Shown here piece after piece: positions 4,619 to 64,000 of a stretch of DNA of 64,000 bases. The notes beneath the pieces were generated by a model, which had not been told where the DNA came from, did not search any database, and saw nothing but the letters and a program-made list of their open reading frames with translations. Position 1 is the stretch's first letter. Every line of letters starts with the position of its first letter. This stretch comes from Diphasiastrum complanatum (taxonomy: Eukaryota; Streptophyta; Lycopodiopsida; Lycopodiales; Lycopodiaceae). A program made the position numbers and the translations under genes. The stretch covers positions 501,001-565,000 of the forward strand of contig CM055112.1 of the NCBI GenBank assembly GCA_029204225.1. Direction: 5' to 3'.

Positions 4619-4789
4619 AGAAAAATTTGTCAAATTTTGTACACAAAGAAGGTTGTGTAGAAAGAGGTTCTTTGATATAGTTGTCGAAGGCCGTTGAGCA
4701 TCACTTGGTTGAGGGTTACATTCACCAATTCGAGGTTTTGGAGTGTAGTGGAAGCGGTGAAAATGTTAGTCAAGTTGTACTTTCGAGAT

Positions 4790-6780
4790 ATTTTTGGAGA
4801 CTTCAATTTTTGGAGTCACAAAATTTTTGAGACTCGAAACTCGAATTTTTGGAGACTTTAATGTTTTGAGTCTCGAAGTTTTTGAGACACGAAATTTTTG
4901 AGACTCGAAACTCGAATTTTTGGAATTTTCAAATTTTTGAAACACAATTTGTGGAAAGACGAATTTTTGGAGACTTCAGACGCGGATTTTTGGAGGCATT
5001 TTCGAAGACTTCAATTTTTTGAGACACAAAATTTTCAAGACTTGAAACTCGAATTTTTGGAGATTTCAACTTTTGGAGTCTCGAAATTTTTGAGACTCGA
5101 AACTCAAATTTTTGGAGTCTCCGAATTTTCGGAACTCAAATTTTGGAGACTCCATTTGTGGAGAGACGAATTTTTGGAGACTCAAGACACGAATTTTTGG
5201 AGATATTTTTGAGGTACATTTCGAGGTACATTTTGTGGAGACTTCAATTTTTGAGACACAAAATTTTCGAGACTCAATTTGTGAAGAGTCTAATTTTTGG
5301 ATACTTCAATTTTCGAGAACGAAATTTTCAAGACTTGAAACTCGAATTTTTGGAGATTTCTATTTTTGGAGTCTCGAAAATTTTAAGACTCGAAACTCGA
5401 AATTTTCTAGACTCGAATTTTTGAGGTATTTTTGGAGACTCGAAACTCAAATTTTTGGAGACACGAAATTTTAGAAAATCAAGACACGAATTTTTGAGGC
5501 ATTTTCGGAGACTTCAATTTTCGAGACACGAAATTTTTGAGACTCGAAACACAAATTTTTGGAGATTTCAATTTTTGGAATCTCGAAATTTTCGAGACTC
5601 GAAACTCAAATTTTCGGAGATTTCAATTTTTTGAGTTTCGAAATTTTTGAGACTCAAAACTCAAATTCGAATTTTTGAGGTATTTTTGGAGACTTCAACT
5701 TTTGGAGACACGAAATTTTTGAGACTCGAAACTCGAATTTTTGGAGACTTCAATGTTGAGTCTTGAAATTTTTGAAACACGTTTAGAGACTTGAAACTTG
5801 AATTTTTGGAGGCTCCAAACTTTCGAGACACAATTTGTGGAGAGACAAAATTTTAGAAAATCAAAACACGAATTTTTGGCATTTTCGGAGACTTCAATTT
5901 TTGAGACACGAAATTTTCAAGATTCGAAACTCAAATTGTTGGAGATTTCAATTTTTGGAGTCTCGAAATTTTTGAGACTTGAGACTCGAAACTCAAATTT
6001 TTCTAGACTCGAAACTCGAATTTATTCGAGACTCAATTTTTTACAACTCTAAATTGTCAAAACTCAATTTGTGGAGAGACGAATTTTTGGAGACTCAAGA
6101 CATGAATTTTTGAGACACGAAACTCGAATTTTTGGAGATTTCAATTTTTGGAGTCTCGAATTTTTGGAGACGCGAATAATCCGAGACTCGAAACTTGAAT
6201 TTTTGGAGATTTTGATTTTTGGAGACTCTAAATTTTCGAGACACAATTTGTGAAGAGACAAATTTTTGGAGACTCAAGACACGAATTTTTGGAGGTATTT
6301 CGAGGTATTTTTGGAGACTTAAATTTTCGAGACACGAAATTCGAATTTAACTAAACCTTCACGAAAATGTCACGAAATTTTTCTCAAGGCTTCACGAGAT
6401 TTTCGGATTTTGGAGACACAAAATTTTCGAGACACGAAATTTTCGATACTCGAAACTCGAATATTTGGAGACACGAAATTTTTGTCATTCAAGACTCGAA
6501 TTTTTGATGACATGAATCTTTTGAGACTCGGAACTCAAATTTTTTGAGACTTCAATTTTTGGAGACACAAAAATTTCGAGACATAAATTGTTGGAGATTT
6601 CAATTTTTGGAGTCTCACAATTTTGGAGACTCGAATTTTTGGAGATACAAAATTTTCGAGACTTAAAATTCGAATTTTGAGAGTCTCCAAATTTTCGGGA
6701 CTCAATTTTTGGAGACTCAATATTTTCGAAGTACATCTCGAGGGTCAGTGTCAATTTGTGTAAAGACGAATTTTTAGAGA
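4790..6780. repeat. Degenerate satellite of GAGACTCGAA / TTTTTGGAGA words
   Basis: Two kilobases are almost wholly made of shuffled short words: GAGACTCGAAACTCGAA, TTTTTGGAGACTTCAA, GGAGTCTCGAAATTTTTGAG and GAGACACGAAATTTT. The words recur every ~18-20 bp and combine into larger units of about 50-60 bp, with divergence between copies. GAGTCTC and its complement GAGACTC alternate, so many adjacent words can pair as hairpins (for example around 5070-5100). Long apparent reading frames across it simply translate the repeat and are not genes. Confidence 0.85.
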
Positions 6781-6789
6781 CTCAAGACA

Positions 6790-7080
6790 CGAATTTTTGG
6801 AGGTATTTTTGAGGTACATTTTGAGGTATTTTCAAGGTACGAGGTACTTTCAAGGTATTTTTTGAGGTGCATTTCGAGATTTTTTGAGGTATTTTGATGT
6901 ACTTTTCGAGGTATTTTTGAAGTACTTTTGAGGTATTTCAAGGTACTTTCGAGGTACTTTTGAGAGTTAGTGTCTCAATTTGTGGAGAGACAAATTTTTG
7001 GAGACTCAAGACACGAATTTTTGGAGGTATTTTTGAGATACATTTTGAGGTATTTTTTCGAGGGTCAGTGTCGCATTCTT
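6790..7080. repeat. GAGGTATTTTTGAGGTAC tandem repeat
   Basis: This continues the satellite with a different word: GAGGTATTTT, GAGGTACATTT and GAGGTACTTTTC recur every ~15-20 bp. A copy of the older word (the TTTTTGGAGACTCAAGACAC block) returns at about 6990-7030, so the two repeat types are interleaved. Confidence 0.75.
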
Positions 7081-43930: not shown

Positions 43931-44437
43931 ATTTATGCCTTTGCAACAAGTAACTCTCATTGTAGGGTTATAAGTTGATTTTTAATGGGTTTATTTTGTC
44001 TTGGGGCCTTTGAAATGATGTTGTGTCCCCTCCACTTTACACTTCAGCTCCTCCAAGCTATCTTCTATATGTATCACAAGTTCTTGTCACAACAAAATGA
44101 ACTTGACATTCATGGTAGAAGCTACCCATATTTCCAACCACTTCATGTCACAGCATTTGAGTGCAACCAATATCTCTCCACCAAATCCTAGTTGGGCAAT
44201 GGAGTTTCTAACCTTACCCTCTTGAGTTCTTTTACCATCGCAATTGGGTAATTTTCTCTCCAAGATCTCTCGGCCCATGAGGAACTCTCTTTCCAAGTCT
44301 TCAAGAATGTTGCTACCATCTATTTCATTAGTGAGATTAAGAGGGATATTTGTGTACTTCCAAATCTTTGTGATTTCATCTTGATTTCATTTGTTGAAGA
44401 TTAATTGAGTTCTAAGTGCATTGGAATAGGTTGAAGA

Positions 44438-44930
44438 AGTTTGATATCATGGCAAACCAAAGAGGGTTCTTGTTGGAGGCAATGATAGACTTACCTCAAT
44501 CAACTACTCAATATGGAAGGTAAGGATGGAATCCTTGCTAAATATGAATGGTATGATGGATATTGTGTTAGGTATTGAAGATGAACATGATATTATCCAA
44601 GATCAAATCATTTATTGAAGGAAGGTCAAGAGGTCTTTACACATCATCAAGATGAATATGTCAAATGAGCTTCTCAAGGAGGTAGGAGCTTGTACTTCAT
44701 CTTATAAGGCATGGAGGACTCTTCAAAGCATTTATGAGTCAAAGTACACATCTAGGGTGCTCACTCTAAGAAGGAAAATTCTTCAAAGTTATCAAAAGGA
44801 AGGTGAAAGTGCTAACTCTTTCTCTTAATGGTGATCTAGCATGTGTCGGTGATGCTATTGGTAACATTGAAATTGTTCAGGTGTTTATTAATGGCTTAGG
44901 AGAGGGTTATGCTAAAAAACCTTACTATTA
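44438..44930 (+). pseudogene. Copia gag relic related to element G
   Basis: Nucleotide-level relative of the 5' leader and gag of element G. The shared leader block CCAAATCTTTGTGATTTC is at about 44365, then ATGGCAAACCAAAGAGG at 44449, the GATAGACTTACCTCAATCAAC block, and ACTCTAAGAAGGAAAATTCT. Frames are broken in several places, and the match ends at about 44925. Confidence 0.7.
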
Positions 44931-44939
44931 TTGTGACTG

Positions 44940-45135
44940 GATTCAATGTCTCTACTACTCAAATTGAATCTACCAAAAACTCGTGTTCTACTTCCCACAC
45001 TTTCCAAAAGTGTTTATTCAAATCTTTTAGACTAATACAACTTTGAAAAGTCAAACTCTAAGTCTAATATGAAATTGGCCTCAACTATGTATAAACTATG
45101 ACCAATCTTGACTAAACTACTTGAAATTTTTCACA
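44940..45135 (-). repeat. Start of the 3' LTR of copia H (partial)
   Basis: On the minus strand TGTGAAAAATTTCAAG follows the element H stop directly, like the LTR start of element G (TGTGAAAAATTGTCAAC). Similarity fades within ~100 bp. Confidence 0.5.
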
Positions 45136-47272
45136 CTCCCTCTTCAACTAGTTTAAGTTTAACCATAGAACTTTGATCCAACTTTCGAATGATCTCCATC
45201 CTAAGTATAGGCCTCATTTCTAATGTTCTAAACTACTTTCCATATTTGATATAGATAATAGTGTCCACTTGGGATGCTTCACTATTTCTTACATCAATTT
45301 TACATGTCAAGATGTGAATAGAACATGAAGAATAAAATAGAATCTAATGAGATAATTCCTCCATGTTATTAACTTTGAACTCTCTGAAAAATTATAGCAA
45401 CCAAACAATAAATGTGAGTGATCACCATTTGCTTGCATGTCTTCTCCATCTTTGTCCTTCTCATAGCTTTGGCACTTTCACACAAAGTCCTATTCTTCCT
45501 CTCGGCCACTCCATTTTGTTGTGGGGTCCTTGGTGTTGTATACTCCCTCTTGATTCCATGCTCATTACAAAAGGCCTTAAACTTGGTAGATATGTATTCT
45601 CCACCATTGTCACTTCTTAAGCACTTGATCTTTGTGAAAAATTGGTTTTCCCTTGCATTCTTGAACTTAACAAAGCCATCATACACTTCATTTTTGCTCT
45701 TTAGTAGATAGATCCAACAAAATCTACTAAAATCATCAATGAAAGTTACATCTATCTTAGCTCCACTATTGCTAATTGTAGTAATTCCATGAACATCCAA
45801 ATGTACATTTTGAGAAGGCTTTGTAGATCTAGATGTAGATCTAGTATAAGGTAGTCCATGTGACTTTGACAAAGCACAAGACTCACAAACACGATTACCA
45901 ATCACAACTTGCTTCCTAGCCATTACCTCCAATGACTTGAAGTTGAGGTGTTCCATCCTTTTGTGCCAAACCTCTTGAATAGAAATTTCCTCCCTTGCAA
46001 CACATCCAACTTGGTTAGCAATAACACAAGCATCTAGTTTGAACAACTTCCATTGCCTTTAACCTTTTGCAATCAAGATATCTTTCCTTTTGATCATACA
46101 AACATTTCCATCAAACTCAACTTTGAGGCCTTTACTTAACAATTGACACACACTAAGTAAATTCTTGGTAATAGATGGAATGAACAAAACATTTTTCAAA
46201 TGAACATTCCTATTTGTAGAGAGAGAAATATGAATTGTGCCAATCCCTTTGATTGCACACTCACCATCATTGGCCGTGTAGATAACCCTCTTGTCATTTC
46301 CATATGCCAACAAAGAACTGAAGTACTCTTTGTGAAAAGTCATGTGCTCCACTATCAATCCACCATGGATCTAGATGTCCATCACTAGCAAGCTACATGA
46401 AGACATCACAAAGGCATCATCATTTGTATTTTGAACATCCAATCCATCCTCATCAAGAGTTAGATTACCTTGCTTGTCTCCTTTATTTCTCTTCTTCTTG
46501 TAGCACTCACTTGCAAAGTGTCCTTTGATGCCACAATAGAAGCACTTGAGCTTTGACCAATCTTTCTTTTTGCCATTTGAAGAAGCCTCCCCTTGATCTT
46601 GCCCTTTAGACCACTTGCTTTTGCTTTTGCCCTTGAATTTGCCTTTGATGAACATAGTCTCCTCTCCAACTTGAGATGTTGATGAAGATCCACCTCTTGC
46701 TTTAAGCCTATATTCTTCATTGATCAAGATCTCTTGAAGATCCATCATAATTGGGAAATTTATTTGAATAGAAAGAATTTGTACAATGTTAGCATGAGCA
46801 TCCAACAAACCATTAAGAATAACTTGAACAAGCTCTCCTTCCTTAATGCTCTCATCAATTCAAGCCAGCTCATCATTCAAAACTCTACTCTCAAAACAAA
46901 AGTATTTGGACTTTCTTCATTCTTTTGCAAACATTTAAAGATTTGTCTTCTTAGAGTCAACACTCTAGCAGTATATTTGGATTCATAAAGCTTCTTCAAA
47001 GCTTTCCAAACCTCACTTGATGAAGTACACTTACCAACTTCCTTGAGAAGTTCATTGGTAACATTCATCTTTATCATATGTAGAGCTCTTTTGGCCTTCT
47101 TGTTGTACCTCAATTGTTCTTGTTGTGTTGTTGTCCTCTCTTCCAAACCTACAACAATATCCAAAACATCATTCATCTCAAGCAGTGATTCCATCCTCAC
47201 TTTCCACAATGAGTAATTGCTTGAGGTAAGCCTATTATTGCCTTCCAACATGTATCCACTTGATGTAGCCAT
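45131..47272 (-). pseudogene. Copia element H, G family, reverse transcriptase deleted
   Basis: Minus-strand relative of element G. Gag starts at 47272 with MATSSGYMLEGNNRLTSSN and SLWKVRMESLLEMNDVLDIV. The frame shifts near 46870. The knuckle CFYCGIKGHFASEC lies in 46808-46371, and the protease region is 46358-46059 with a stop before it. Integrase is 46046-45369 with HKRMEHLNF, FIDDFSRFCWIYLL, CLRSDNGGEY and [13 protein letters not shown]. After ESAKAMR at about 45460 the homology breaks, and sequence resembling only the very end of pol (VKLKLVEEGV) follows at 45165-45131. Roughly 2 kb of reverse transcriptase/RNase H is gone. Confidence 0.82.
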
Positions 47273-47648
47273 GTTGCAATGATCTGATCCTTCTCTTCCA
47301 ACCTGTTCCAATGCACAAAGCACTCTTTTGAAATACAACAAATGTTTTTAAAAAGAAATCACAAAGATATGGAACCTCTCAATTCTCTTCTAGCACTTAG
47401 ATCAAGCAAATCAACACATAGAATACTGAAATCTTGATCCAACCTATGATCTATCCTCATTCTAGTGACTCTTGCCAGAAGGAGGAGACTCTACCATTTT
47501 GGAGAGCCAAAGCATCCTCATTTGCTAATCCCTCATGCTAATGCTATTGTTATGCTTTCTAGTTGCTTTCTATTTTTTTGTTCTTGTTTTGATTAGTTAT
47601 GGTTTTTTCCATTAGCATGCATATTGAGCATTTGAGCTAACCTCCCAC

Positions 47649-51095: not shown

Positions 51096-51836
51096 GATAA
51101 TTTATCGGGCTTATTTTTGAAAGTGAAAAAATGTACAATACATTTTCAAGTCTTGATTTTCTCTTATTTGAGAGAGTAAGAGAAATCGAGCCAATACCTT
51201 CAATGACACACTCACCATCATTTTCCATGTAGATCACTTGCTTGACTCCATCATAAGTGACTAAGGAAGAAAAGAATTTCTTATGACTAGTCATATGAGA
51301 ACTAGCTCTATCAATCCACCATGACTCTTTGTCACTTTCTCTTGAGATAAGACTTGAAGACATCATAAGAGTACAAACAACTTCATTACTAACATCTTCA
51401 TCAATAGAAAGTTGCTTTGCTTGCTATCTTTTAATTGCTCTCTTTTCATTTTATAGCATTCATTAGAAAAATGACCCTTTTTGCCACAATAAAGGCACTT
51501 GAGTTTAGACTTATCCTTCTTACCACCATACAAAGATTTTGCCTCACCTTGCCCTCGATTCATGGTACTCTTCTTGTTCCACTTGCCTCCTCCTTTGCCA
51601 TTGCCTTTGGTGAAGAGTGCCTCTTCATCTCCAACATTGGTAGAAATCGGTTCACTTTTCGACTTAATATTGGCAACCCTATCCTCTTCAGCCATCAACA
51701 CCTCTTGCAATTCTTCAATAGATTTAAAAGTTCTTTGAATGTCATTTGGCCACTTGCCAAATATTGCCCTAATTGGTAGTTTCCAAGTACTTCCCAAAAA
51801 ACGTAGTTTTACTTGACTAGATTCAATGTATCTCAA
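51096..51836 (-). pseudogene. Copia relic I: gag end and protease
   Basis: Minus-strand relative of element G. The gag C-terminal half is 51836-51363, with IEELQEVLMAEEDRVANIK and the knuckle CLYCGKKGHFSNEC. The protease part is 51366-51100, with WWIDRASSHMTSHKKFFSSL; Arg-Ala replaces Ser-Gly of the active site. IEGIGSISLTLSNKRK follows. The copia match ends where gypsy integrase begins. Confidence 0.78.
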
Positions 51837-51989
51837 TCAACCAATAGAAATAGTCCAAATCCAACCTTATTACTTCGCCTACCTGTAAAAGATAGTAAGG
51901 ACACTATTTTTAGGCCTTATTGACATAAAGAAATAATTGTCTAAATTGAAATCTAAGTTCGGCCTCCAAATTGCCAAATAGAACCAACA

Positions 51990-52260
51990 AAACTAGCCTT
52001 CTTCAACTAGTTTTACCACCCATCTTAAGAATGATCTCCATCCTAAGAATAGATCTCCTCTCTATGGTTTTTTAATGCTAAAAATAGAAATATTCATAAT
52101 TGATATAGATAATAGTGACCATATTGGACACTTCACTATTTACTACATCAATTTTACATATCAAAATAAAAAACCAACATGAAAAGTAACATAGAATCAT
52201 TATGAATAGATTCCTCCATGCTTCCACCTTTTATAACTTTGGAACAGTTCACAGTATAAC
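51990..52260. repeat. Dispersed ~250 bp block shared with 45140-45370
   Basis: Both contain CTTCAACTAGTTT, AATGATCTCCATCCTAAG, TTGATATAGATAATAGTG, ACATCAATTTTACAT and GATTCCTCCATG (ATTCCTCCATG in the other copy) in the same order and orientation. In element H the block lies at the pol end. Here it stands upstream of relic I's gag, so it belongs to a different truncated copy. Confidence 0.7.
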
Positions 52261-52437
52261 TTGACTAAACTCAAAAATATTCCCTCCATTGGTTACGAAA
52301 AGGGCATTATTTTCACTGGATCTAGAATATGACCGCCATCCCTAAATTTGAATCAGAAAAAATAGCAAATGTTTACATATGCATTCCTTCCACAAGAATG
52401 AAAATATGGGTGCCATCTCCAATTATGTACGCCATCT

Positions 52438-53174
52438 TCACACTGGAATGCCTCTACTAGAGTATGCATCTAATAGATGTGCATTATCCTTATTTCCACT
52501 AAGTTCAACATAAGTAGAGTACAATGAATAATGGGAGCTCCTTAAAGGAACATTCCCATCAGTAAAACCTAGAATGTTCAAAACATAAGATCTTTTGACG
52601 AAAATGATTTTATTTGTCTTAACAAATTTATGTCCTCCTAGATAAAATGATAAAGCTTTAACTGCCATTATCAGACTCTCCCCAACTGGGCTCAGCTTCG
52701 AATGAGCAATACAGATCTCATTCTCCAGAAAATGCCTTAGATAGTGGCCAAGTCCCCTATCCCTCTGGAACGAGGATGCATGTTATCTGTTACCACCTCA
52801 TCTCACAGCAAAGTCATCAATTATGAGAGCATCCTGCAATAAGAAATATGTTAAGAAAAATACATTCAGCAGTTAAAACATTCTAATGCAAGGAAGTTTA
52901 AACACTTACACATTCTTCATCATCAGCAGCAACCAGATCAAGATGATCAATATTATGACCACCTACTGAAGTGGAATCATCTGTGAAATGCATTGATGAT
53001 GGACGAGGGAAGCCCATCTGGGATTGAAATGCTGTGAATTCTTCATCGGATGGTCTGCCTCATCCATCCTCAGCAATATTTGATAAAGTCTTAGTCAAGC
53101 ACTCTTCACCCGTCATAAGTCCCTCCTCATCATCATAATCAATTCCAGCAACAAGGTCATCTATTTCAAAATCT
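52438..53174 (-). pseudogene. Unidentified leftward gene, downstream exons
   Basis: Continuation of the gene that begins near 53912. Exon-like block 53174-52910 reads DFEIDDLVAGIDYDDEEG and QMGFPRPSSMHFTDDSTS, ending AADDEEC before donor GTAAGT. A 76 bp intron (52909-52834, acceptor TTGCAG) leads to the last exon 52833-52438. That exon shows DALIIDDFAVR, GLGHYLRHFLENEICIAHSK, MAVKALSFYLGGHKFVKTN and ends RGIPV, then TGA. In-frame stops are at 53060-53062 (TGA), 52798-52800 (TGA) and 52783-52785 (TAA); each is one C-to-T step from a sense codon. Acid-rich stretches suggest a nuclear protein, but no family is recognised. Confidence 0.5.
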
Positions 53175-53244
53175 ACAAAGTTGGAGAATTCAGAAACTGT
53201 GCCGGATAATAAACATAGCACCTCACTTCACGATAGTAAAAAAA

Positions 53245-53912
53245 CTAACATAAATCAGCTGTAGTAAAATATACATCATCATTTATATAATATAATGGCA
53301 AATTGAAAAGACATTTAGACTCCTCTATAGGGATCGATTCATCGACAAATGTATTCTGGCCAATAAAAGAATCCCAGAGCACATCAGTATTTACATCAAT
53401 AAAGTCACTATCCTTATTAGGGGTGTCGATTAGGAAGTGACTGATATCCTTAATAGATAACTGAACAGAGGATAATGCAAGATGAGAGTCAGCAGCAGAA
53501 ACTTCCTCATCATCCGGGATTTGAACTAGCACAAAAAGTACGAAACCACTCTGGTATTCAACCAATCGACATTTTTTGTTGCAATAAGGACACATTGAAT
53601 TGCTTTTAAAAAGATCAAACAATTTGGTGAACATTCTATCTAGTCTATGTCTGAAAGTTGGAAAGAAACGAACAAAATCAGTATAATGCATGTACGAGAG
53701 TGAACCTATGGGGATAACAAGCTTACTGAGTACATCCCTGAATCTAACATAATGTTCATAAAATACGTCAGAATTGGGTTGTGCAATCTTAAAAGCATGT
53801 AAATATGGCCTAAATAGGCTGAGGAAGTAGTCTAGATTTTCATTAATCCCAAATTTAGTGAAAAATGAACTTAGGCCCGAATCTCGTGTAGATTGAGGAA
53901 GAGGCCATGGCA
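53245..53912 (-). pseudogene. Unidentified leftward gene, first exon
   Basis: An ATG in good context at 53909 (MASSSIYTRFGPKF) is followed by a frame slip into a long open frame. The frame shows FFTKFGINENLDYFLSLFRP, FYEHYVRFRDVLSKLVIPIG and SYMHYTDFVRFFPTFRHRLD. A short zinc-type motif, CPYCNKKC (about 53590), is followed by EYQSGFVLFVLVQIPDDEE and an acidic Ser/Asp-rich end. The product would be mainly helical with a small zinc site. The layout faintly recalls an MCM N-terminal region, but no AAA+ domain follows, so no function is claimed. It lies head-to-head with the histone-like gene once element G is removed. Confidence 0.5.
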
Positions 53913-53919
53913 CTACGAC

Positions 53920-54251
53920 AGATATCGCACCTGTGCGTGAGGGAGACAAAACGAAACAAAAGTAACTGTAAAGATCGCGCACAAGAGGGATATGTACGAC
54001 AGCTAGCATCTGAGTATCGCACTTGTGCGCAGGTAGGGATCGAGGAATAAAATGTACAACAAAGCGCGTGCAAAAGAGCGATATGTTGTGAATTTCGAAA
54101 AAAAAGGCAAAAAATTTAATCGGGTTTCATGCCTTTGATAGTGAATTTTCACACGTGTGGCCAATGGTCAATAAACATGTGTTCATTTTCGATTGGTTTG
54201 CAGGCATTGGCACGTGTGAGGTGACACCTGAACACGTGTGAAATGACACAA
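53920..54251. promoter_or_regulatory. Left half of a divergent palindrome-array region
   Basis: Two motif arrays precede the leftward gene. The first, GATATCGCACTTGTGCGC-like, occurs at about 53921, 53974 (reverse), 54014 and 54064 (reverse). The second, ACACGTGT/ACATGTGT-like G-box cores, occurs at about 54150, 54176, 54210 and 54230. The same two arrays continue right of element G, so they formed one block before G inserted. A regulatory role is inferred from arrangement and position between divergent genes. Confidence 0.5.
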
Positions 54252-54256
54252 GGACA

Positions 54257-54909
54257 TGTGAAAAATTGTCAACTAGTAGTATTTTCCTAACTTGAGATTT
54301 TGTAGGCCTATGGCCAAATAAAAGTTAGAGATAGGTTCATACATGTATGTAGAGGCCCAAAGTATGTGTACACTACTTTTGAGGTCACATTAATTAGAGG
54401 AGGTCGAGTGTGGAGCTCTTCTATTGGCTCATAATTTGGTGCATTCCTATTTGACCAAATTTCTAGGTAGATGGGTGAATCCTATTGGACCCCAATTTTA
54501 GCCTATCATAAGACAAGTGGCCAAGAGGCACTATGGCTGCTATAAATAGCCATCTCCACGAGTATGTACACATCTCATTTTCATTCTATTGAATGAATGT
54601 TATGCTCTTTGAAGATCCATCTTCTTCTCTCTCACTTTTTTGTTCATATCTTGCATTCTAGCCACTAGAATTGTGATTTCTTTGTTGCTATGGCTTCACA
54701 CGTGTGAAATGCAGGTTGTAGGCTCTGAAGTACGGACAGGGACAGCAAGTTTCTGTTTGTGGAAGCTTATGATCAGATCTTGATGTTTAGTTGATGTTTA
54801 GTATGCTTAACATCACAATTTCTATCATTTTTTCAATCTAGATGTGCATAACTTCCATGGCCAAGATCTTTATGAAACTTTAGCATCTTTTGGATCTGAG
54901 TTTTTCACA
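54257..54909 (+). repeat. 5' LTR of element G
   Basis: TG...CA ends. TATA box TATAAATA at 54541-54548, so transcription probably starts ~30 bp downstream. It contains one ACACGTGTGAAATG word resembling the flanking host arrays. Confidence 0.95.
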
Positions 54910-55518
54910 TGGTATCAGAGCATTAGGCGGCCAAATGTGCAGGTTTTGCCAGATTTAGAAGAGATTTGTGGGCGAGTTTGCTTTTGTAGCATTCCAATCA
55001 AGTTTCTAGCTAAAAATCTTGTTGATTTATGTGTAGAAATTGGATCTTTGTGATCAAAACATCATTTGTATGCATTTCAATTGAAGTAGGGCGAATTCCC
55101 TCTGTACTTATCAGAATAAGGAGACAAAATTTGTTTTGGAAAGAGGGAGATGCAAGATCCAACAAGATCCTATTAGTTTTCCATTCTAGCATATAGTTTT
55201 TTGATTCAATTTCTTGCTTCTTCATGTCAAAAACTTCAAAATTGATGTAACCCTCTGATTTTCAGTTTGCTGAATGATTCAAGAGTGTATTTCAATCTTA
55301 GGAGTGAGGGAAAAGCAAGTATATTGAGGTTTGGTCTTGGTTTGATCAAGAAATCATAAAACTAGTGGCTAAAATTGAGGAAAAAGTGAGGAAAAGAGAG
55401 AAAAAGTAAGGTTTTAGGTTCCAAATCTTTGTGATTTCTTCTTGTGTTTCATTTGTTGATTCAAGAGAGTGCTTAGTGCATTGGAACAGGTCAAAGATCA
55501 GAGATCAATCATTGCAAC

Positions 55519-58500
55519 ATGGCTACAAATGGAGGCTACATGTTGGAAAGCAATGATAGGCTTACCTCCCTCAACTATTCTACTTGGAAAGTAAGGATGG
55601 AGTCTTTGCTTGAGATGAATGAGTTGATGGATATTGTTGTAGGTGTGGAGGAGAGACCTTTGGCACCTCAAGAACAATTGAGGTATGACAAGAGGGCAAA
55701 GAAAGCCCTTCACATGATCAAGATGAATGTGACAAATGAGCTTATCAAAGAGGTTGGTAAGTGCACATCATCTAGTGAAGCTTGGGAAGCCTTGAAGAAG
55801 GTTTATGAATCCAAGTCTACTTCTAGAGTGTTGACTTTAAGAAGGCAAATCTTTTCTTGTATGCAAAAGAAGAGTGAGAGTGGACATGCTTTTGTTTTGA
55901 GAGTTAAAGCATTGAATGATGAGTTAGCATGCATTAATGATGGCATAAATAATGAGGAGCTTGTTCAAGTGATTCTCAATGGCTTGTTGGATGATCATGC
56001 TAATCTTGTTCAAAGTTATGCTATCCAAAAATGTTTACCAAGTGTTGGAGACTTGCAAGAGGTCTTGTTGGCTGAAGAATTCAGGTTGCAAGCAAGAGTG
56101 GGAGCATCTTCTACATCTCAAGGAGGAGAAGAGGAGGCAATGTTCTCTAAAGGCAAGTTCAAGGGCAAAGGTAAAAGCAATTGGTCTAAAGGGCAAGACC
56201 AAGGTGAGCACTCTACTTTTGGCAAAAAGAAGGATAGATCTAAGCTAAAATGTTTCTATTGTGGAGTCAAAGGGCATTTTGCTAGTGATTGTTTCAAGAA
56301 AAAGAGGGATCAAGGGGAAAAGCAAACCAATCTAACTATTGATGAGGGTGGGGATGAGCTTCTTTCAAATGATGCTTTTGTTATGTCATCTTGCTTGTTG
56401 GCTAATCATGGAGACATTGATCCTTGGTGGATTGATAGTGGAGCCACTTCTCATATGACATATCATAAAGAGTATTTTTCATCTTTAATGGCATTTGATG
56501 GTGATAGGAAGGTAATCTATACCGCAAATGATGGTGAGTGTACAATCAAGGGGATTGGCACAATTCCTATTTCACTTTCTACAAATAGGAATATAGAATT
56601 GAAAGATGTTTTGCTCATTCCATCCATTACCAAGAACTTACTTAGTGTAAGCCAAATGCTTGACAAAGGATTCAAAGTTGAGTTTGATGGTGATGCTTGC
56701 TTGATCAAAAAGGGGTGTAGTATCATTGCAAAAGGGAAAAGGCAAGGGAAATTGTTCAAGCTTGATGCATGTGTTGTTGCTAACCAAGTTGGATGCATGG
56801 CAAATGAACAAATGTCAATTCAAGAGGTATGGCATAAAAGGATGGGACATCTCAACTACAAGGCCTTGGAGGTAATAGCCAAAAAGGAGGTAGTAAGGGG
56901 ACTTCCCAAGTCTCTTACTTGCTTGAATCATGTTTGTGAAGAATGTGCTTTGTCTAAATCACATAGATTGCCATATACTAGATCTATATCTAGATCTAAG
57001 ATGCCTTTTTCTCTCTTGCATTCGGATATTCATGGTGTTACTACAATTAGCAATGGAGGTGCTAAGATGTATGTAACTTTCATTGATGATTTTAGTAGAT
57101 TTTGTTGGGTTTATCTACTAAAGAGCAAGGATGAGGTGTTTGATGTGTTTGTCAAGTTCAAAGTTGCTATTGAGACTCAATTTACAACCAAAATCAAATG
57201 CTTGAGGAGCGACAATGGTGGTGAATACATTTCTAACAAATTCAAAGCCTTTTGCGATGAGCATGGGATCAAGAGGGAGTACACATGTCCAAGAACACCA
57301 CAACAAAATGGAGTGGCCGAGAGGAAGAATAGAACCTTGTGTGAGAGTGCAAAGGCAATGAGATTGAATGCTAATCTTCCTAAAACTTTTTGGAGTGATG
57401 CTTTGTTGTGTGCAAATTTCCTATGCAATAGATGGCCAAGTGTTGTATTGGAAGGAAAAACCCCTTTTGAAGCTTTGTTTGGTATGAAGCCTAATGTCAA
57501 GTTTCTAAGAACTTTTGGATGCATTTGCTACTTCAACATTACTCTTGATGATAGAACTAAGGAGGATCCATCTTCAAGAAAGGGCATTTTTGTTGGTTAT
57601 AGTGAAGTAAGCAAAGCATATAGGATTTATGTTCCTTCAATCAAGAAAGTGTTCACAAGTAGGGATGTCATTTTTGATGAAAGTAATATTCCAAAAGTTG
57701 TTTCAAGTGATGATGGTGTTGTTGCAACTAATGTGCTTGATGACAATGGAGTTGATGACACATTGGATGTGGATGTTGAAGAAGCCTCTTCAAGTCAAAT
57801 TCCAAGGAGAACTCCAAGGCATAAAGTGAAACCCTCAAGGCTCACTTATGATGGCAAAGGTAAGCAAGTGGTGGATGGATCCAACTATGCTTTCCTAACT
57901 TCTTTTGATGTACCTTCATGTGTAGATGAAGCAAGGCAAAAAGAGGAATGGATCCAAGCAATGGATCTTGAGTTTGAAGCACTTATGAAGAACAACACAT
58001 GGAGATTGGTGGAGCTTCCAAAGGGCAAAAGTGCAATTGGATGCAAATGGATCTTCAAGGTAAAGACAAATCAAGATGGATCTATCAACAAGTTGAAGGC
58101 AAGGTTGGTGGCTAAAGGTTATGCTCAAGAGCATGGCATTGACTATGAGGAAACCTTTGCACCCGTGGCAAAGATGGTGAGCATAAGAGTAATCATTTCC
58201 CTTGCAACTCTTTATGGATGGGATCTTTGGCAATTAGACATTTCTAATGCTTTCTTGAATGGTGATCTTGAAGAGGAAGTCTACATGGAGCAACCCGAGA
58301 GCTATGTTTCTCATAGCAAGCCTAATCATGTGTGTTTTCTACAAAAAAGTTTGTATGGTCTTAAGCAAGCACCAAGGAGTTGGTATGCTAGGCTTAACTC
58401 TTTTCTACTTTCTCAAAACTTCACTATGAGTGAGTATGATCATTCACTTTACTTTAGAATTAGTGCTAATGATGTTACAATCCTTCTAATTTATGTGGAT

Positions 58501-59469
58501 GACATTATTTTAAGTGGAGGGAACAAGGAAGATATAGAAGATATCAAGAAAGCACTAAAAAAGGAATTTGAAGTGCATGATCTTGGTCTTTTGAGCTATA
58601 TCTTAGGAATAGAAGTAATTAGAACTTCTCAAATCACTTTTATTTCACAAGAGAAGTATGCTATTTCTATTCTCAATAGATTTCATATGGTAGATGCAAA
58701 TCCTATTGATACACCTATGGAATCACATGTAAAGCTAACTATAAGAGGTAATGAAAGATCCTTCGAGGACATTACTCTCTATAGGAAGCTAATAGGTTCT
58801 CTTATATATCTAACCATCACAAGACCTGATTTATCTTATTGTGTTGGTAGATTAAGCCAATTCATGCAAGATCCTAGCATAGAACATTGGAAACTAGGAA
58901 AGAGGATCTTGAGATACATCTCGGGAACAAAAGATTTTGGCATTGTTTATAGAGGATCATCACCTAACTTATTTGGTTTTTCAGATTCAGATTTTGCAGG
59001 AGACCTTATGGATAGAAAATCCATAAATGCACATGCTATTTTCATAGGTGATGGAGCTATCTCATGGATGTCGAAGAAACAAGCAACTATATCACTTTCT
59101 TCTAGTGAGGCCGAGTACAAAGCTTTGACATCATGCACAAAGGAGATGGTGTGGATCAAGAGGATGATTATGGAGCTTCACTTGCTGGATTTTTCAGAGA
59201 GTCCAATCATCTTTTGTGACAACCTTTCAGCCCAAAGTCTAGCAAGCAATCCGGTTTTCCATGCAAGGAGCAAACATATCGAGGTGGCTTACCATTTTGT
59301 GAGAGAACAAGTGTTGGCAAAAGAGATCAAGCTTGAACATGTCCCATCAAAGGAATGTGTGGCTGATATCTTTACCAAAGCATTGGGAAAGGACTTATTT
59401 TTCAAGCATAGAACAAGTCTTGGTGTACTTTCTAAATCTATGCTAAAACTAGTTGAAGAGGGAGTGTGA
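55519..59469 (+). CDS. Element G gag-pol polyprotein (1316 aa)
   Basis: Single open frame from ATG in GCAACATGGCTAC. Gag core is residues ~1-240 (STWKVRMESLLEMNELMDIV; LTLRRQIFSCMQKK). The zinc knuckle CFYCGVKGHFASDC has Cys245, Cys248, His253 and Cys258. The protease site Asp306-Ser-Gly is in WWIDSGATSHMT. Integrase has its zinc part (HKRMGHLNY..C..C), HSDIHG, CLRSDNGGEY and [10 protein letters not shown], so all three catalytic acids are present. Reverse transcriptase shows LDISNAFLNGDLEEEVYMEQ and YVDD at 992-995. RNase H is last (FSDSDFAGDLMDRKS; SLSSSEAEYKAL), ending KLVEEGV. The domain order gag-PR-INT-RT-RH is that of Ty1/copia. No lesion was found, so it may be autonomous. Confidence 0.96.
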   Translation: MATNGGYMLESNDRLTSLNYSTWKVRMESLLEMNELMDIVVGVEERPLAPQEQLRYDKRAKKALHMIKMNVTNELIKEVGKCTSSSEAWEALKKVYESKSTSRVLTLRRQIFSCMQKKSESGHAFVLRVKALNDELACINDGINNEELVQVILNGLLDDHANLVQSYAIQKCLPSVGDLQEVLLAEEFRLQARVGASSTSQGGEEEAMFSKGKFKGKGKSNWSKGQDQGEHSTFGKKKDRSKLKCFYCGVKGHFASDCFKKKRDQGEKQTNLTIDEGGDELLSNDAFVMSSCLLANHGDIDPWWIDSGATSHMTYHKEYFSSLMAFDGDRKVIYTANDGECTIKGIGTIPISLSTNRNIELKDVLLIPSITKNLLSVSQMLDKGFKVEFDGDACLIKKGCSIIAKGKRQGKLFKLDACVVANQVGCMANEQMSIQEVWHKRMGHLNYKALEVIAKKEVVRGLPKSLTCLNHVCEECALSKSHRLPYTRSISRSKMPFSLLHSDIHGVTTISNGGAKMYVTFIDDFSRFCWVYLLKSKDEVFDVFVKFKVAIETQFTTKIKCLRSDNGGEYISNKFKAFCDEHGIKREYTCPRTPQQNGVAERKNRTLCESAKAMRLNANLPKTFWSDALLCANFLCNRWPSVVLEGKTPFEALFGMKPNVKFLRTFGCICYFNITLDDRTKEDPSSRKGIFVGYSEVSKAYRIYVPSIKKVFTSRDVIFDESNIPKVVSSDDGVVATNVLDDNGVDDTLDVDVEEASSSQIPRRTPRHKVKPSRLTYDGKGKQVVDGSNYAFLTSFDVPSCVDEARQKEEWIQAMDLEFEALMKNNTWRLVELPKGKSAIGCKWIFKVKTNQDGSINKLKARLVAKGYAQEHGIDYEETFAPVAKMVSIRVIISLATLYGWDLWQLDISNAFLNGDLEEEVYMEQPESYVSHSKPNHVCFLQKSLYGLKQAPRSWYARLNSFLLSQNFTMSEYDHSLYFRISANDVTILLIYVDDIILSGGNKEDIEDIKKALKKEFEVHDLGLLSYILGIEVIRTSQITFISQEKYAISILNRFHMVDANPIDTPMESHVKLTIRGNERSFEDITLYRKLIGSLIYLTITRPDLSYCVGRLSQFMQDPSIEHWKLGKRILRYISGTKDFGIVYRGSSPNLFGFSDSDFAGDLMDRKSINAHAIFIGDGAISWMSKKQATISLSSSEAEYKALTSCTKEMVWIKRMIMELHLLDFSESPIIFCDNLSAQSLASNPVFHARSKHIEVAYHFVREQVLAKEIKLEHVPSKECVADIFTKALGKDLFFKHRTSLGVLSKSMLKLVEEGV

Positions 59470-60117
59470 AAAATTGTCAACTAGTAGTATTTTCCTAACT
59501 TGAGATTTTGTAGGCCTATGGCCAAATAAAAGTTAGAGATAGGTTCATACATGTATGTAGAGGCCCAAAGTATGTGTACACTACTTTTGAGGTCACATTA
59601 ATTAGAGGAGGTCGAGTGTGGAGCTCTTCTATTGGCTCATAATTTGGTGCATTCCTATTTGACCAAATTTCTAGGTAGATGGGTGAATCCTATTGGACCC
59701 CAATTTTAGCCTATCATAAGACAAGTGGCCAAGAGGCACTATGGCTGCTATAAATAGCCATCTCCACGAGTATGTACACATCTCATTTTCATTCTATTGA
59801 ATGAATGTTATGCTCTTTGAAGATCCATCTTCTTCTCTCTCACTTTTTTGTTCATATCTTGCATTCTAGCCACTAGAATTGTGATTTCTTTGTTGCTATG
59901 GCTTCACACGTGTGAAATGCAGGTTGTAGGCTCTGAAGTACGGACAGGGACAACAAGTTTCTGTTTGTGGAAGCTTATGATCAGATCTTGATGTTTAGTT
60001 GATGTTTAGTATGCTTAACATCACAATTTCTATCATTTTTTCAATCTAGATGTGCATAACTTCCATGGCCAAGATCTTTATGAAACTTTAGCATCTTTTG
60101 GATCTGAGTTTTTCACA
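59465..60117 (+). repeat. 3' LTR of element G
   Basis: Same length as the 5' LTR, with one difference seen. It overlaps the last bases of the gag-pol stop codon (GTG TGA). Confidence 0.95.
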
Positions 60118-60625
60118 GGACACGTGTCTCGTGTTCATTAGTCGGATGGACAACACGTGTTGTTCTCGCATTAAGCCATATAATCCCACATGTGTGAAAT
60201 GACAACCTGACATGTGTCAAATGATCATTCGCTGACTTGTCACCACGTGTCACTTTTTGATGACTTGACAGTTCGCACGTGCGACAAGACGTTCTTTCGC
60301 ACGTGCGAACCGCAATATAAAATCACAAACTCCGATGAATTTTTTTCACTTTTTTTTTTCCCTCCGCATATCGCACTTGTGCACCACTTTCATAATCGAT
60401 ATTCTGCCTACTGCATTTCATGCGCACAGGTCCAATATTTCTGCTTACGTGTCTCCTCATATCGAACTTGTGCACCTCTCTTCTATATTCAACGATCTCT
60501 CTTGTATTGGGCTCGCACAAGTCCGATATATCGTACTTTCTTTTCGTACATATCGCTCCTCTACAAACACTTCAAAATCCTCCCCTTCTTATCCTGGTCG
60601 TCATGCACAAGTGCAATATCCCCCA
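60118..60625. promoter_or_regulatory. Right half of the divergent palindrome-array region
   Basis: G-box-like words occur at about 60121 (ACACGTGT), 60152 (ACACGTGT), 60189 (ACATGTGT), 60210 (ACATGTGT), 60242 (CACGTGTC), 60275 (GCACGTGC) and 60299 (GCACGTGC). The second array follows: CATATCGCACTTGTGCAC at 60367, reverse copies at about 60421, 60511 and 60603, and a forward CATATCGAACTTGTGCAC at 60458. The arrays run up to the start codon at 60648. AATATAAAATCAC near 60314 could be a TATA box. Confidence 0.5.
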
Positions 60626-60647
60626 GTATACTTCTACGGATAGGAGC

Positions 60648-61478
60648 ATGCAGACGAGGAGGGATTTCTTCTTTGCTGGCTCATCCTCAGCCCCTACGGT
60701 TGCCATTACACCTCCGGCTAGATCTAGAAGGCGCAACCATTGCAGGTGGCTCTCTGATATTCATAAGTATTAGACATCAACCGCTTTGTTGATTCCCAGA
60801 GCTCCATTCTACTGTGCCGTCCATCACATAACTAGAAATGATCTCGGTCAGCTTGTTAGATTCACACCCTCTGCTCTTCAGTGCCTTCAGGAAGCTGCTA
60901 AGGACTACATGAGCCTTTTTTTTGAAGATTCATTTTTGCTTGCTATTCATTCTAAGAGAGTCACCATTATGCCTAAGGACTTTCAGTTACTGATGAGAAT
61001 GAGGGAGAGATTTTGCAAGTTATACATGTCTTAGCCTGCTGCTCCTAGACCTGTTCATCTAGATAGGACTGATCTTCCTACCAAGCGTCCTAGGAAGCAG
61101 ACAGCCCCCAAGAGAGCCCCAAAGAAAGTAAGGAGGGTAGATTCTGCGAAGCCTAACCCAGATGCAAATGTAGATAATGCTGCCCTAGATAAGGTTGTAT
61201 ATATAGCTACATCGAATTTGGAAACTCCTGTAATTCCTATAGATACTACTCATCCACCTCCTTCAGATCTTTATACATATATAGATTCCGATGATTATCT
61301 TAAACTTGAGAAGGACATAGTCAATGCTGTAGATACAATTGGTATTCCATTTTGTTTTAGAATAGAGGAACTTGACTATAGTATAAATTATAGAGTTGTT
61401 GATTGTTTGGATCTCAAAAATAGACGGGCTTCTATCAATGATCTTGTGAGAGTCTGGGATTACACTCTTGCAATATGA
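60648..61478 (+). pseudogene. CENH3-like histone-fold protein with basic extension (N-terminal part of gene)
   Basis: One plus frame from ATG (MQTRRDFFFAGSSSAPTVAI). After a basic patch (ARSRRRNHCRW) comes a full histone H3-like core: LSDIHKY, then ALLIPRAPFYCAVHHI, VRFTPSALQCLQEAAKDYMS, FFEDSFLLAIHSKRVTIMPK and DFQLLMRMRERF (60747-61019). LLIP.APF, EAAKDY and KDFQL are closer to plant CENH3 than to canonical H3 (LLIRKLPF, EAAEAY, KDIQL), and loop 1 is one residue longer than in H3. A basic linker follows (PTKRPRKQTAPKRAPKKVRR), then ~120 acidic to mixed residues. TAG codons at 60771-60773 (where H3 has Gln) and 61032-61034 interrupt an otherwise open frame. It continues into the next entry. 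Confidence 0.65.
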
Positions 61479-62116
61479 CATTGCAAGAGATTCATCCAAT
61501 GAATTGCTGGTGCTCAGTAGCTTTTTGTTTCAGGCCTTCAAGGAGAATAACGACACATTGTCACAGTGTCTGACTAGTGGATTCACACCAGCAACAAAAT
61601 ACATGGTCGTGCCTTATCATACCAAGTAAGATATGCTAAGTGCTTCTTGTTGTTTAATGCTTTATCATTGGCATTATCAATGGAAATAGTTCTCAGAATT
61701 GCAGCTAATAGACTTTCTATCTTATTTTGCAGTGATCACTGGAGTTTAAACCTGATCTCTATTAAGAAATCTGTAGATAATATTGTTAAGAGATTTTGTG
61801 TCAAGATGAACCTGGCTAGCGATACACATCAGAATGTAGATATATACTTGCCATATTTAAGTAAATATTCTCCAACAGATGTTTCCCATTCAGTGGACTG
61901 GCAGATCGTTAGTTTGGAGGTAAATTTTGTCTTTCTTAACAACATTTTGAATTCTAATGTATTTGTTTCATTCTAATTCATTCTGTTTCTTAATCAAGCC
62001 AGGTGTACAAATTTAGACAAGAAATTAACCTAAGCATATTGGCTAGGGCAAGGCTTCAGCCTCCCGTTGTTGATGATGGTGCAAAGGATGATGTAACTAT
62101 ACTAAATAAAGATTAG
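61479..62116 (+). pseudogene. Downstream exons with ULP1-protease-like segment
   Basis: After a one-base frame slip near 61475 the reading resumes as YDIARDSSNELLVLSSFLFQ and PATKYMVVPYHT to a GTAAGA donor at 61628. The acceptor TTATTTTGCAG (61732) leads to exon 61733-61919: NDHWSLNLISIKKSVDNIVK, then SHSVDWQIVSLE. A second intron (61920-62002, gtaaat...cag) leads to 62003-62116: VYKFRQEINLSILARARL, ending NKD TAG. The VVPYHTNDHWSLNLI block resembles the catalytic-His strand of ULP1/C48 cysteine proteases, which remove SUMO-like modifiers. The Gln and catalytic Cys (Q..DCG) are not found, so any protease would be dead or misassembled. Exon phases agree across both introns. Confidence 0.45.
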
Positions 62117-62119
62117 AAC

Positions 62120-63320
62120 AATACAGATAGCATAGAACAAAAATAGATTGCACATGTATATTAGTTCAAAGTCTTGATCCAGTGGTAGCCATGTACCTTC
62201 AATTTTCTTGTATCTCTGATAGCTAAATATGAGACTGAGCATTTGCTTTTCGATATGATAGCGAAAGATCATTGAAGACTTTTTAATCCTGCATTCTATG
62301 TCATTATTTGTTTCACTATCCCAGCCTTGATCCATGAGATCTGACAAAGTCTCATATGATAAATCATTGCAAACAAATAAAGTTGGTGTCCTACGAACAC
62401 TAGCACTCAAGAAAAAATCAACAAATATATTTTATGAGATAAACCAACTTAGGTGAACAATTTTCGAGCCAGTGCTTATCTTCATAGCATTTTTAATATC
62501 AATTAGTAGCTTGCATCTCAAGGATTCAGAAACAATACTGTCAAGATTAGGCCACTCATCACTTTGAAAACTAGACAATGGAATTGCTTCGAGCTTGCCA
62601 AAACCTCCATCTGTTTGTGGTGTATATAAAGATTCATAAAAATAGATACCACAATCTGCAAGTTCCTTTGGACTTCTTCCTCTGTATTGCAACTTTCCAA
62701 CATTAGAGTGAATCACGTCCAATGATTGTGCTGACTCCCATTCACTTATGCACGACGGATATAAATTTGAAAGAAAAAAAAATGTTGAGGCATTTAAATC
62801 ATAATTTGAAGAGCATCAATAAAGAAAATCACCTATGATTGTTGTAGAGTGCATATGTTTTGATATACTTACAATTACATTTTCGATGATCATGAGGATT
62901 GATATCATGTACTTTGATTTCTGAATGCATATATACATGTTGTACTAAAACTTCTGATATCGATTGACCTCTCGAGGTAGTCTTAAACTCCAGAATTTTT
63001 GCTTTCCAATAAGATTTGTATGTCATTTTTGCTCTTTTCTTTTGTCGAAAATTGCCCTTTGATGATGGATACAGCAACACCCATGAATTCTTCATATATT
63101 TTGTTGGCTTCCAGTTATCAACTTCATCTTTCTCATTGTAAAGAATCACAGACTCGACTGTAGATCTGGGTCTCCTTGCCATTGCTATTTTCAAAGCTTG
63201 GGCGCCAAAAATCTCTTTGATATGATACTTAATTTCAATTTTTTGTATTACATTTAATCTAATGTGAATGCCACCATAGTCACAATTACTGTGTATACCA
63301 TATTTTAAATAAATGTACAT
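62120..63320 (-). pseudogene. Unidentified spliced gene, convergent with the histone-like gene
   Basis: Minus strand. The first exon is from ATG at about 63182 (MARRPRSTVESVILYNEKDE) with NWKPTKYMKNSWVLLYPSSK, MTYKSYWKAKILEF and VLVQHVYMHSEIKVHDINPH, ending HDHRKCN at a GTAAGT donor (about 62872). A second block, 62745-62432, reads VIHSNVGKLQYRGRSPKELA, then GIYFYESLYTPQTDGG. A third, 62410-62170, reads TPTLFVCNDLSYETLSDLMD and YQRYKKIEGTWLPLDQDFE. The YWKAKILEF...V.V.HVYMHSEI stretch loosely recalls a BAH or chromatin-reader strand pattern, but this is weak. No family is claimed. Confidence 0.4.
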
Positions 63321-63529
63321 ACTGTATTTCTATAATTGTAACTAGTATGGTTAGCAAATTTTATTATACTAACCAGCATAGTGAGTAAATTTAACTTGAG
63401 GTATTGACGTTGGGCAGATTAGCACGTGTCGAGCAGGAAGAAGAAACCAATGGGATAAGTCCATGCTGCTCGGACACAAATTTTAAAGTTTTCTATATTG
63501 TATTTTTATTTCTCAGTTAATTTGAACTA

Positions 63530-64000
63530 CGTTACGTAGATTTCAAATCCGTGCATTTTGATTGGGCATGGTGACGGTCGAAACTAGAGAAAAAAAATAA
63601 AAGTACATTTACAAAAGGTCTTTTTTTATTTTGGAACTCCTCTAATGCTTCTTCTTGTTGCTGATTTGAGTGACTGGTTGTAGCACTATGTGCTTGTTGT
63701 TGGAATTGCTTCTTCTTTTTGTTGTTGTATTTCAAAGTTCGACAGTCCTTGATTTTGTGCAGAAGAGTTTTTGCACTGGTTGGAATGATGAAGAGCTTGA
63801 ATTCGATCCTAAACCGAAATTTGGCCTAGACTGCATGTTGCTCTTCTTGTCAGTATAACCTGACTTTGTAGATCTCTTGGATCTAAACTTCTGATTTTTC
63901 AAATATAGAGCCCGAGGATCTGATCCTGAGCCTAAGGAGGATGCTGATCTTCTAATCTCCTCTTGTAGGAGCAATGAAATTACTCTTGACAGAGTGAGGT
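63530..64000 (-). pseudogene. Copia gag fragment related to A'
   Basis: Minus strand, entering from the right edge. [20 protein letters not shown] is similar to the A' gag block at 33000. SGSDPRALYLKNQKFRSKRS and a Ser/Phe-rich stretch follow. The C-terminal half of a zinc knuckle (HKIKDCRTLKYNNKKKKQF, about 63755-63700, in another frame) has lost its first two cysteines. A Gln-rich tail runs to about 63620. It continues beyond the window. Confidence 0.7.

Follow-up and report, generated by a model that had tools for sequence, protein, structure and literature searches.

A segment at positions 60648-62116 of the window, i.e., of the whole analysed stretch of 64,000 nucleotides of Diphasiastrum complanatum DNA, raises the question of why a histone H3 core should be followed by a ULP1-like protease segment, and whether a gene containing both belongs to the host or to a mobile element. 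Host histones wrap and silence transposons. The original prediction, made from the sequence letters alone, ascribed the segment to a chimeric, chromatin-targeting protein, perhaps derived from a selfish element or from a duplicated and rebuilt centromeric histone. Results of our analysis indicate that the window locus is very probably a copy, decayed and with internal deletions, of a terminal inverted repeat (TIR) DNA transposon of a family designated here as family A, the third gene of which would encode one protein that begins with what is left of an H3 tail and continues through an H3 fold and a basic linker into a Ulp1/C48 protease domain. The first of the two proposed origins is borne out by relatives in the same genome that have a common gene order and inverted termini.

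Anatomy and decay of the window copy

The features of the window copy, with the evidence for each of them, are as follows:

52243..63647, no strand assigned: family A transposon remnant, copia-interrupted and internally deleted (collinear blastn blocks against the complete copies X009, X019, and L030)
52243..52418, plus strand: left subterminal part, element positions ~176-351 (blastn against X009, X019, and L030)
52438..54126, minus strand: gene "left", several exons, CPYCNKKC motif (homologues at the same place in other family A copies)
54257..60117, plus strand: Ty1/copia LTR retrotransposon, a separate intergenic insertion (LTRs and Pfam RVT_2, rve, and gag)
60118..60635 (with 54127-54256), no strand assigned: region upstream of both left and H3-C48, which diverge from it (CACGTG and CGCAC/GTGCG palindromes abundant)
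60636..61625, plus strand: first exon of the H3-C48 fusion gene, disrupted (ACG in place of the start codon, two TAG, frame change)
~60717..61004, plus strand: H3 histone fold (Pfam PF00125)
61035..61475, plus strand: basic linker, followed by the first part of the protease domain (linker match in all scored copies, see below)
61733..61919, plus strand: exon 2, 187 nt, with the protease histidine strand DHWSLNLIS (C48 profile match in relatives)
61993..62116, plus strand: exon 4 remnant (comparison with relatives)
62102..63182, minus strand: gene "anti", BAH-like and ubiquitin-like by eye only (same place in other copies)
63613..63647, plus strand: right terminal inverted repeat, ending CTCCTCTAATG (2386 genome-wide occurrences of the terminus pattern, as against 0 for the control)

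The right end of the window copy is the same as the nine right ends printed for its relatives, and its left terminus was not found by blastn against the complete copies. Three internal losses could be mapped. The transposase-like gene is deleted beside the left subterminal part (2.3-3.0 kb lost as compared with X009, X019, and L030), exon 3 of the fusion gene, with the catalytic-cysteine motif, is deleted directly before position 61993 (~255 bp), and the anti gene lacks ~495 bp at its 3' side. Neither left nor anti of the window has a significant Pfam match.

The H3-C48 gene copy of the window is a dead pseudogene. The ATG start of the family is replaced by ACG at 60636-60638, in-frame TAG codons occur in exon 1 at 60771-60773 and 61032-61034, and the reading frame shifts near 61462-61475. 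The single reading frame drawn through the H3 core in the original prediction is therefore not present here. Base changes private to the window number 11, including five C>T or G>A. With so few of them, methylation-driven decay cannot be demonstrated, and a CAG-to-TAG origin of both stops is a guess.

The adjoining copia retrotransposon has its own LTRs (54257-54909 and 59465-60117, 99.85% identical over 653 bp) and a 5-bp target duplication (GGACA), and sits between two genes of the element; for these reasons we rejected the assignment of the H3-C48 segment to it. Pieces related to this retrotransposon (66-78% identity, both strands) are also present at 44358-47377 and 51130-52220. The stretch between the left and H3-C48 genes (53901-54256 and 60118-60640) contains CACGTG eight times in 879 bp, with 0.2 occurrences expected by length, and is rich in CGCAC/GTGCG palindromes; judging from this composition, it is perhaps a two-way promoter with putative sites for a factor of the element or of the host.

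Several other repeats were noted. A small contig (G000:C889, 64177-67619) holds a 99% copy of window positions 60118-63560, perhaps the other haplotype. Within the window, a degenerate tandem array, which matches itself with 66-87% identity when shifted by many different distances, spans 4770-7060, and two direct repeat pairs, 23137-23616/31825-32291 and 24173-24446/28621-28895 (95% and 98%), are possibly the ends of other mobile elements.

Organization and abundance of family A elements

The genome searched comprised 1,744,706,496 bases in 5176 contigs. A search with the Histone model yielded 6325 first-look candidates, 150 of which were scored. Thirteen loci reached 163.7-165 bits, and the three of them that were read are all canonical H3; below a step in the scores, a large set lies at 95-110 bits. 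The linker of the fusion gene matched in 150/150 scored copies (out of 3104 first-look candidates; 69-100% identity; the window and its duplicate on the small contig included), so that the architecture has many relatives in this genome; 16 of these 150 copies lie in frames of at least 300 aa without a stop inside the match. At up to three mismatches, a 39-mer of the family A H3 occurs 640 times genome-wide and a 38-mer of the protease exon 844 times, the control being 0 in each case; the latter count, like that of the terminus pattern obtained at the same stringency, is inflated by derivatives. Counts of histone and CENH3 genes made in genomes of this kind can thus be inflated by transposon copies.

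A complete element is 8.1-9.5 kb long and has four genes and 35-bp inverted termini (CATTAGAGGAGTTCTC...). The transposase-like gene, left, H3-C48, and anti follow in that order between the inverted termini in 5/5 complete copies. Among the 14 family A loci fetched (L006, L008, L009, L017-L024, and L028-L030), left, H3-linker, and anti keep one order in 12, the exceptions being L008, which lacks left and anti, and L020, which lacks left; in L018, the C48 part is cut. The right end, CTCTAATG, is followed by differing flanks in 9/9 right ends printed, L023 having lost that end, and the left end, CATTAGAGGAGTTCTCAATATCAAAAAGACCCTTT, repeats it in inverted orientation. The 35 bp are identical at both ends in five of six copies (L028, L029, L030, X009, and one further pair) and mismatched in X019. 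No target-site duplication of fixed length was found in six copies, which gave a single 3-nt agreement.

Among the 80 exact terminus matches listed for contig C1 of this genome (G000), in a listing of the first 100 places, 15 lie in 64.97-66.68 Mb and 27 in 95.04-100.64 Mb. Four pieces fetched from the first block have the protease end, and the two of them that reach far enough upstream, L054 and L055 (within 65.1-65.7 Mb), contain the protease part without H3, which indicates that a derivative was amplified in that block. Three scans of IMG/VR gave no real related locus, the similarity of the one hit, L053, being limited to 14 residues.

Predicted fusion protein and its protease domain

In two copies, L009 and L019, the predicted exons of 983, 187, 105, and 138 nt join into an uninterrupted frame of 470 aa, the introns being predicted from GT-AG borders and frame. 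L017 has a single terminal stop, and with its exon 3 no more than partly matched and wrongly delimited it was not counted as intact. The third gene of family A is thus predicted to encode a single protein in which an H3-tail remnant and an H3 fold are connected by a basic linker to a Ulp1/C48 domain, and which is intact in two copies if the predicted introns are right. The joining of an H3 fold to a ULP1-type protease, proposed for the window, is confirmed as one architecture by these relatives, and the run-on past the last helix through the basic linker into exons with an HW-containing strand is present in the window itself.

The protease nature of the C-terminal part is best seen in the relatives. 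In L009, it matches Pfam PF02902 (Peptidase_C48) at 44.1 bits (cut-off 20.7, E=2.9e-11), and the same profile matches in 4/4 aligned family A members scanned, one of them carrying an X. The ULP1-like exons of the window, taken apart or joined, have no Pfam C48 match, and the cysteine exon is absent from this copy. NCBIfam gave nothing for the C48 part, and its PDB matches, to SENP2 and Ulp1 chains, are weak (E 0.007-0.011). At the catalytic positions of the four aligned copies, His and Gln are kept in 4/4 and Cys in 3/4 (F in one), and the Asp site looks like Asn.

H3 fold and its relation to CENH3

The H3-type core of the window, contained in 60648-61031, is complete. It matches Pfam PF00125 with E=1.4e-20 (74.2 bits, cut-off 26.4), the fold of L009 does so with E=4.7e-28, and a PDB search of the window segment gave histone H3 at a best E of 6.9e-19, the name CENP-A being absent among the 60 of 175 PDB matches listed. 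The AlphaFold prediction for the window H3 part (pLDDT 37) is uninformative. Residues R83, F84, H113, R116, T118, R129, and R131 are invariant in 11/11 family A copies checked, the window included, and D123 is kept in 10/11; R63 is replaced by P, and C110 by L or F. Of these positions, R83, H113, R116, T118, D123, R129, and R131 are those at which loop 1, loop 2, and alpha 3 of a histone H3 contact DNA or H3. The N-terminus, MDRRKQTRRD, resembles by eye the H3 tail MARTKQTARK. Unlike H3, which stops soon after its last helix, the predicted proteins of L009 and L019 run past that helix into the linker and C48.

The CENH3-like diagnostic positions pointed out in the original prediction (LLIPRAPF, EAAKDY, KDFQL, and a loop 1 longer by one residue) are present in the window, but over the whole fold it is host H3.1 that scores highest against the window row: 183, as compared with 177 for rice CENH3, 164 for Arabidopsis CENH3, and 151 for human CENP-A, the centromeric rows of the comparison coming from these three species. 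In the five family A rows, the lead of H3.1 over rice CENH3 is 12 points in L009, 8 in L017, 1 in L022, 6 in the window, and 17 in L021, and the scores of the Arabidopsis and human proteins lie below that of rice CENH3. Over the fold, L009 and host H3.1 share 57% identity. A tree built from 16 chosen rows, in which long branches lead to CENP-A, Arabidopsis CENH3, and L035, sets the transposon histones apart at 87/87 support, a value not starred. The local CENH3-like traits are real and, as the sequence scores indicate, do not carry the whole fold; with the fold overall not nearer to CENH3 than to H3, an origin from CENH3, rebuilt or duplicated, is unsupported.

A sister family with an H3-like gene

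A second family, family B, accounts for 13 of the first 20 loci. Its left boundary starts with CATTAGGGC in six of seven loci printed, at four distinct sites, and its right terminus was not located. A 42-mer of the family B H3 occurs 202 times (control 0). The H3-like frame includes the motif MARTKQTARD in L001 and MARMKQTARD in L015, an upstream in-frame Met leaving the start ambiguous, and a long proline-rich stretch precedes the H3 fold. Family B carries a homologous transposase-like gene, a left gene (E=4.6e-10 for the last part), and an anti gene with 29-38% identity to that of the window, and we saw no fused C48 in this family. Of 20 further histone pieces, four belong to family A, eight to family B, and five to host H3; the three others (L043, L044, and L035) represent two further H3-like lineages apart from both families.

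Selective constraint on the H3 fold

By a simple counting method without a significance test, applied to 11 of the 15 copies in hand (the window included), comparisons between the four subfamilies give dN/dS values of 0.07-0.22 for the H3 fold, and comparisons inside a subfamily 0.23-0.51. The corresponding values for the N-tail are 0.25-0.62 and 1.42-2.10, and that for the transposase segment of five recent copies is 0.83. As far as can be judged from these values, the H3 fold looks constrained between subfamilies. The within-subfamily values for the N-tail and the value for the transposase segment mean that constraint on young copies is weak. Together with the invariant residues, the dN/dS values thus seem to describe a fold that is kept while a lineage spreads and decays after insertion.

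Possible role of the fusion protein

The fusion of H3 and a protease is probably a tool with which the transposon handles host chromatin. Its most likely role, which we propose tentatively, would be that of an anti-silencing chromatin factor, a chromatin-anchored deSUMOylase. The transposon would supply an H3 variant of its own that can pair with H4 or enter nucleosomes, and this variant would bring a SUMO-type protease onto chromatin, where the latter would strip SUMO off the host silencing factors; the chromatin of the element would then stay open for transcription and for the transposase. The BAH-like and ubiquitin-like appearance of the anti protein may make it a second chromatin-reading part. 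The sequences themselves show the folds, their joining in the DNA, the kept contact residues, the apparent constraint, and the anatomy of the element, whereas we infer splicing and expression, the transposase role of the first gene, nucleosome entry, the activity and the target of the protease, and anti-silencing. The broader proposition that the element DNA carries a transposon-encoded H3 variant with a built-in SUMO protease removing SUMO-dependent silencing, and that the sister family with its ARTKQTAR-tailed histone does likewise, is doubtful.

The same element anatomy, the kept contact residues, and the travelling of the fusion gene with the transposase-like gene in all five complete copies also fit a possible transposition factor, in which the H3 fold would tether transposase complexes to nucleosomes, affecting target choice, and the protease would act on the transposase or on SUMO targets of the host without relief of silencing. 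A target preference was, however, not seen in the few flanks read, and the clustered C1 places fetched are derivatives without H3. It is unlikely, in turn, that the protein is a nucleosome poison or a silencing decoy, replacing or titrating H3/H4 or mimicking the tail and drawing off its readers, with the protease as a relic: while the tail motifs of family A and of L001 of family B, the Asn at the C48 Asp site, and the seemingly protease-free state of family B would agree with this, many copies retain the C48 exon (844 matches, a count that includes derivatives), and all four aligned copies retain His and Gln. Still less probable is that a captured H3 and ULP1 are carried without use, like most captured gene pieces. 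The broken state of the window copy and of many others, and the higher dN/dS within subfamilies, would be expected of such a passenger, but the low values between subfamilies and the 16 of 150 scored copies with long frames are not in its favor. A host gene, i.e., a duplicated or rebuilt centromeric histone that merely lies amid repeats, is hardly conceivable in spite of its H3 fold and some local CENH3-like positions, given hundreds of copies with the same neighbours and the same termini and a fold overall not closer to CENH3, and it is refuted at the window locus by the common termini and gene order.

A constrained-looking H3 fold joined to a deSUMOylase-type domain in a high-copy transposon suggests an ability of mobile DNA to supply chromatin parts of its own. 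Silencing escape thereby becomes directly testable with a defined protein.

Comparison with known systems

Because no Pfam model matches the first gene in family A or in family B, its role as a transposase is one that we infer, from its position and the order of its residues. In family A, the order D, D, CxxC, HxxxxH, E can be followed by eye (LDESE, AGDLK, CLYC, HILRDH, and QGMEKSH); the H pair of family B could not be placed. This order is given for the EnSpm group in PMC12730594, which makes family A similar in this respect to CACTA/EnSpm (CMCT) elements. It differs from them in the absence of a Pfam match, in termini that are CATTAG and not CAC..GTG, and in the failure of the 3-bp duplication rule (3-nt match in 1/6).

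In the literature covered, most subscription papers being outside it, we found no report of an H3-C48 fusion or of H3 in a plant transposon, and a review of plant gene capture does not contain the word "histone" in its main text. Precedents do exist for the two halves taken singly.

For the protease half, PMC13317346 describes ULP1 (KAONASHI/KIU) genes in plant MULE/Vandal transposons, the relief of or escape from silencing by KIU-carrying Vandals, and ULP1-carrying VANC genes in anti-silencing Vandal elements. A C48 domain in a plant DNA transposon is common to these and to family A, but family A has no MULE transposase match by Pfam, has inverted termini, and places C48 behind an H3 fold.

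For the histone half, H3-like genes are carried by fungal hAT transposons, namely, H3L of Pyrenophora tritici-repentis (PMC3538342) and those of Pseudocercospora fijiensis (PMC6710886). What they share with family A is the location of an H3-like gene within a TIR DNA transposon and its multiplication to tens or hundreds of copies. In contrast to them, family A resides in a plant, in keeping with the H3.3 features, the copia element, and the intron style seen here, its H3 is fused to C48, it has four genes, and it is one of two related H3-carrying families; in addition, no hAT transposase domain was found in it by Pfam, and no 8-bp duplication was seen.

With the H3 and CENH3 of plants, the transposon histones have in common the H3 fold, the contact residues, and a tail-like N-terminus. 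The differences concern what surrounds the fold: the protein of family A runs on into a linker and a protease, while in family B a long proline-rich stretch stands before the fold.
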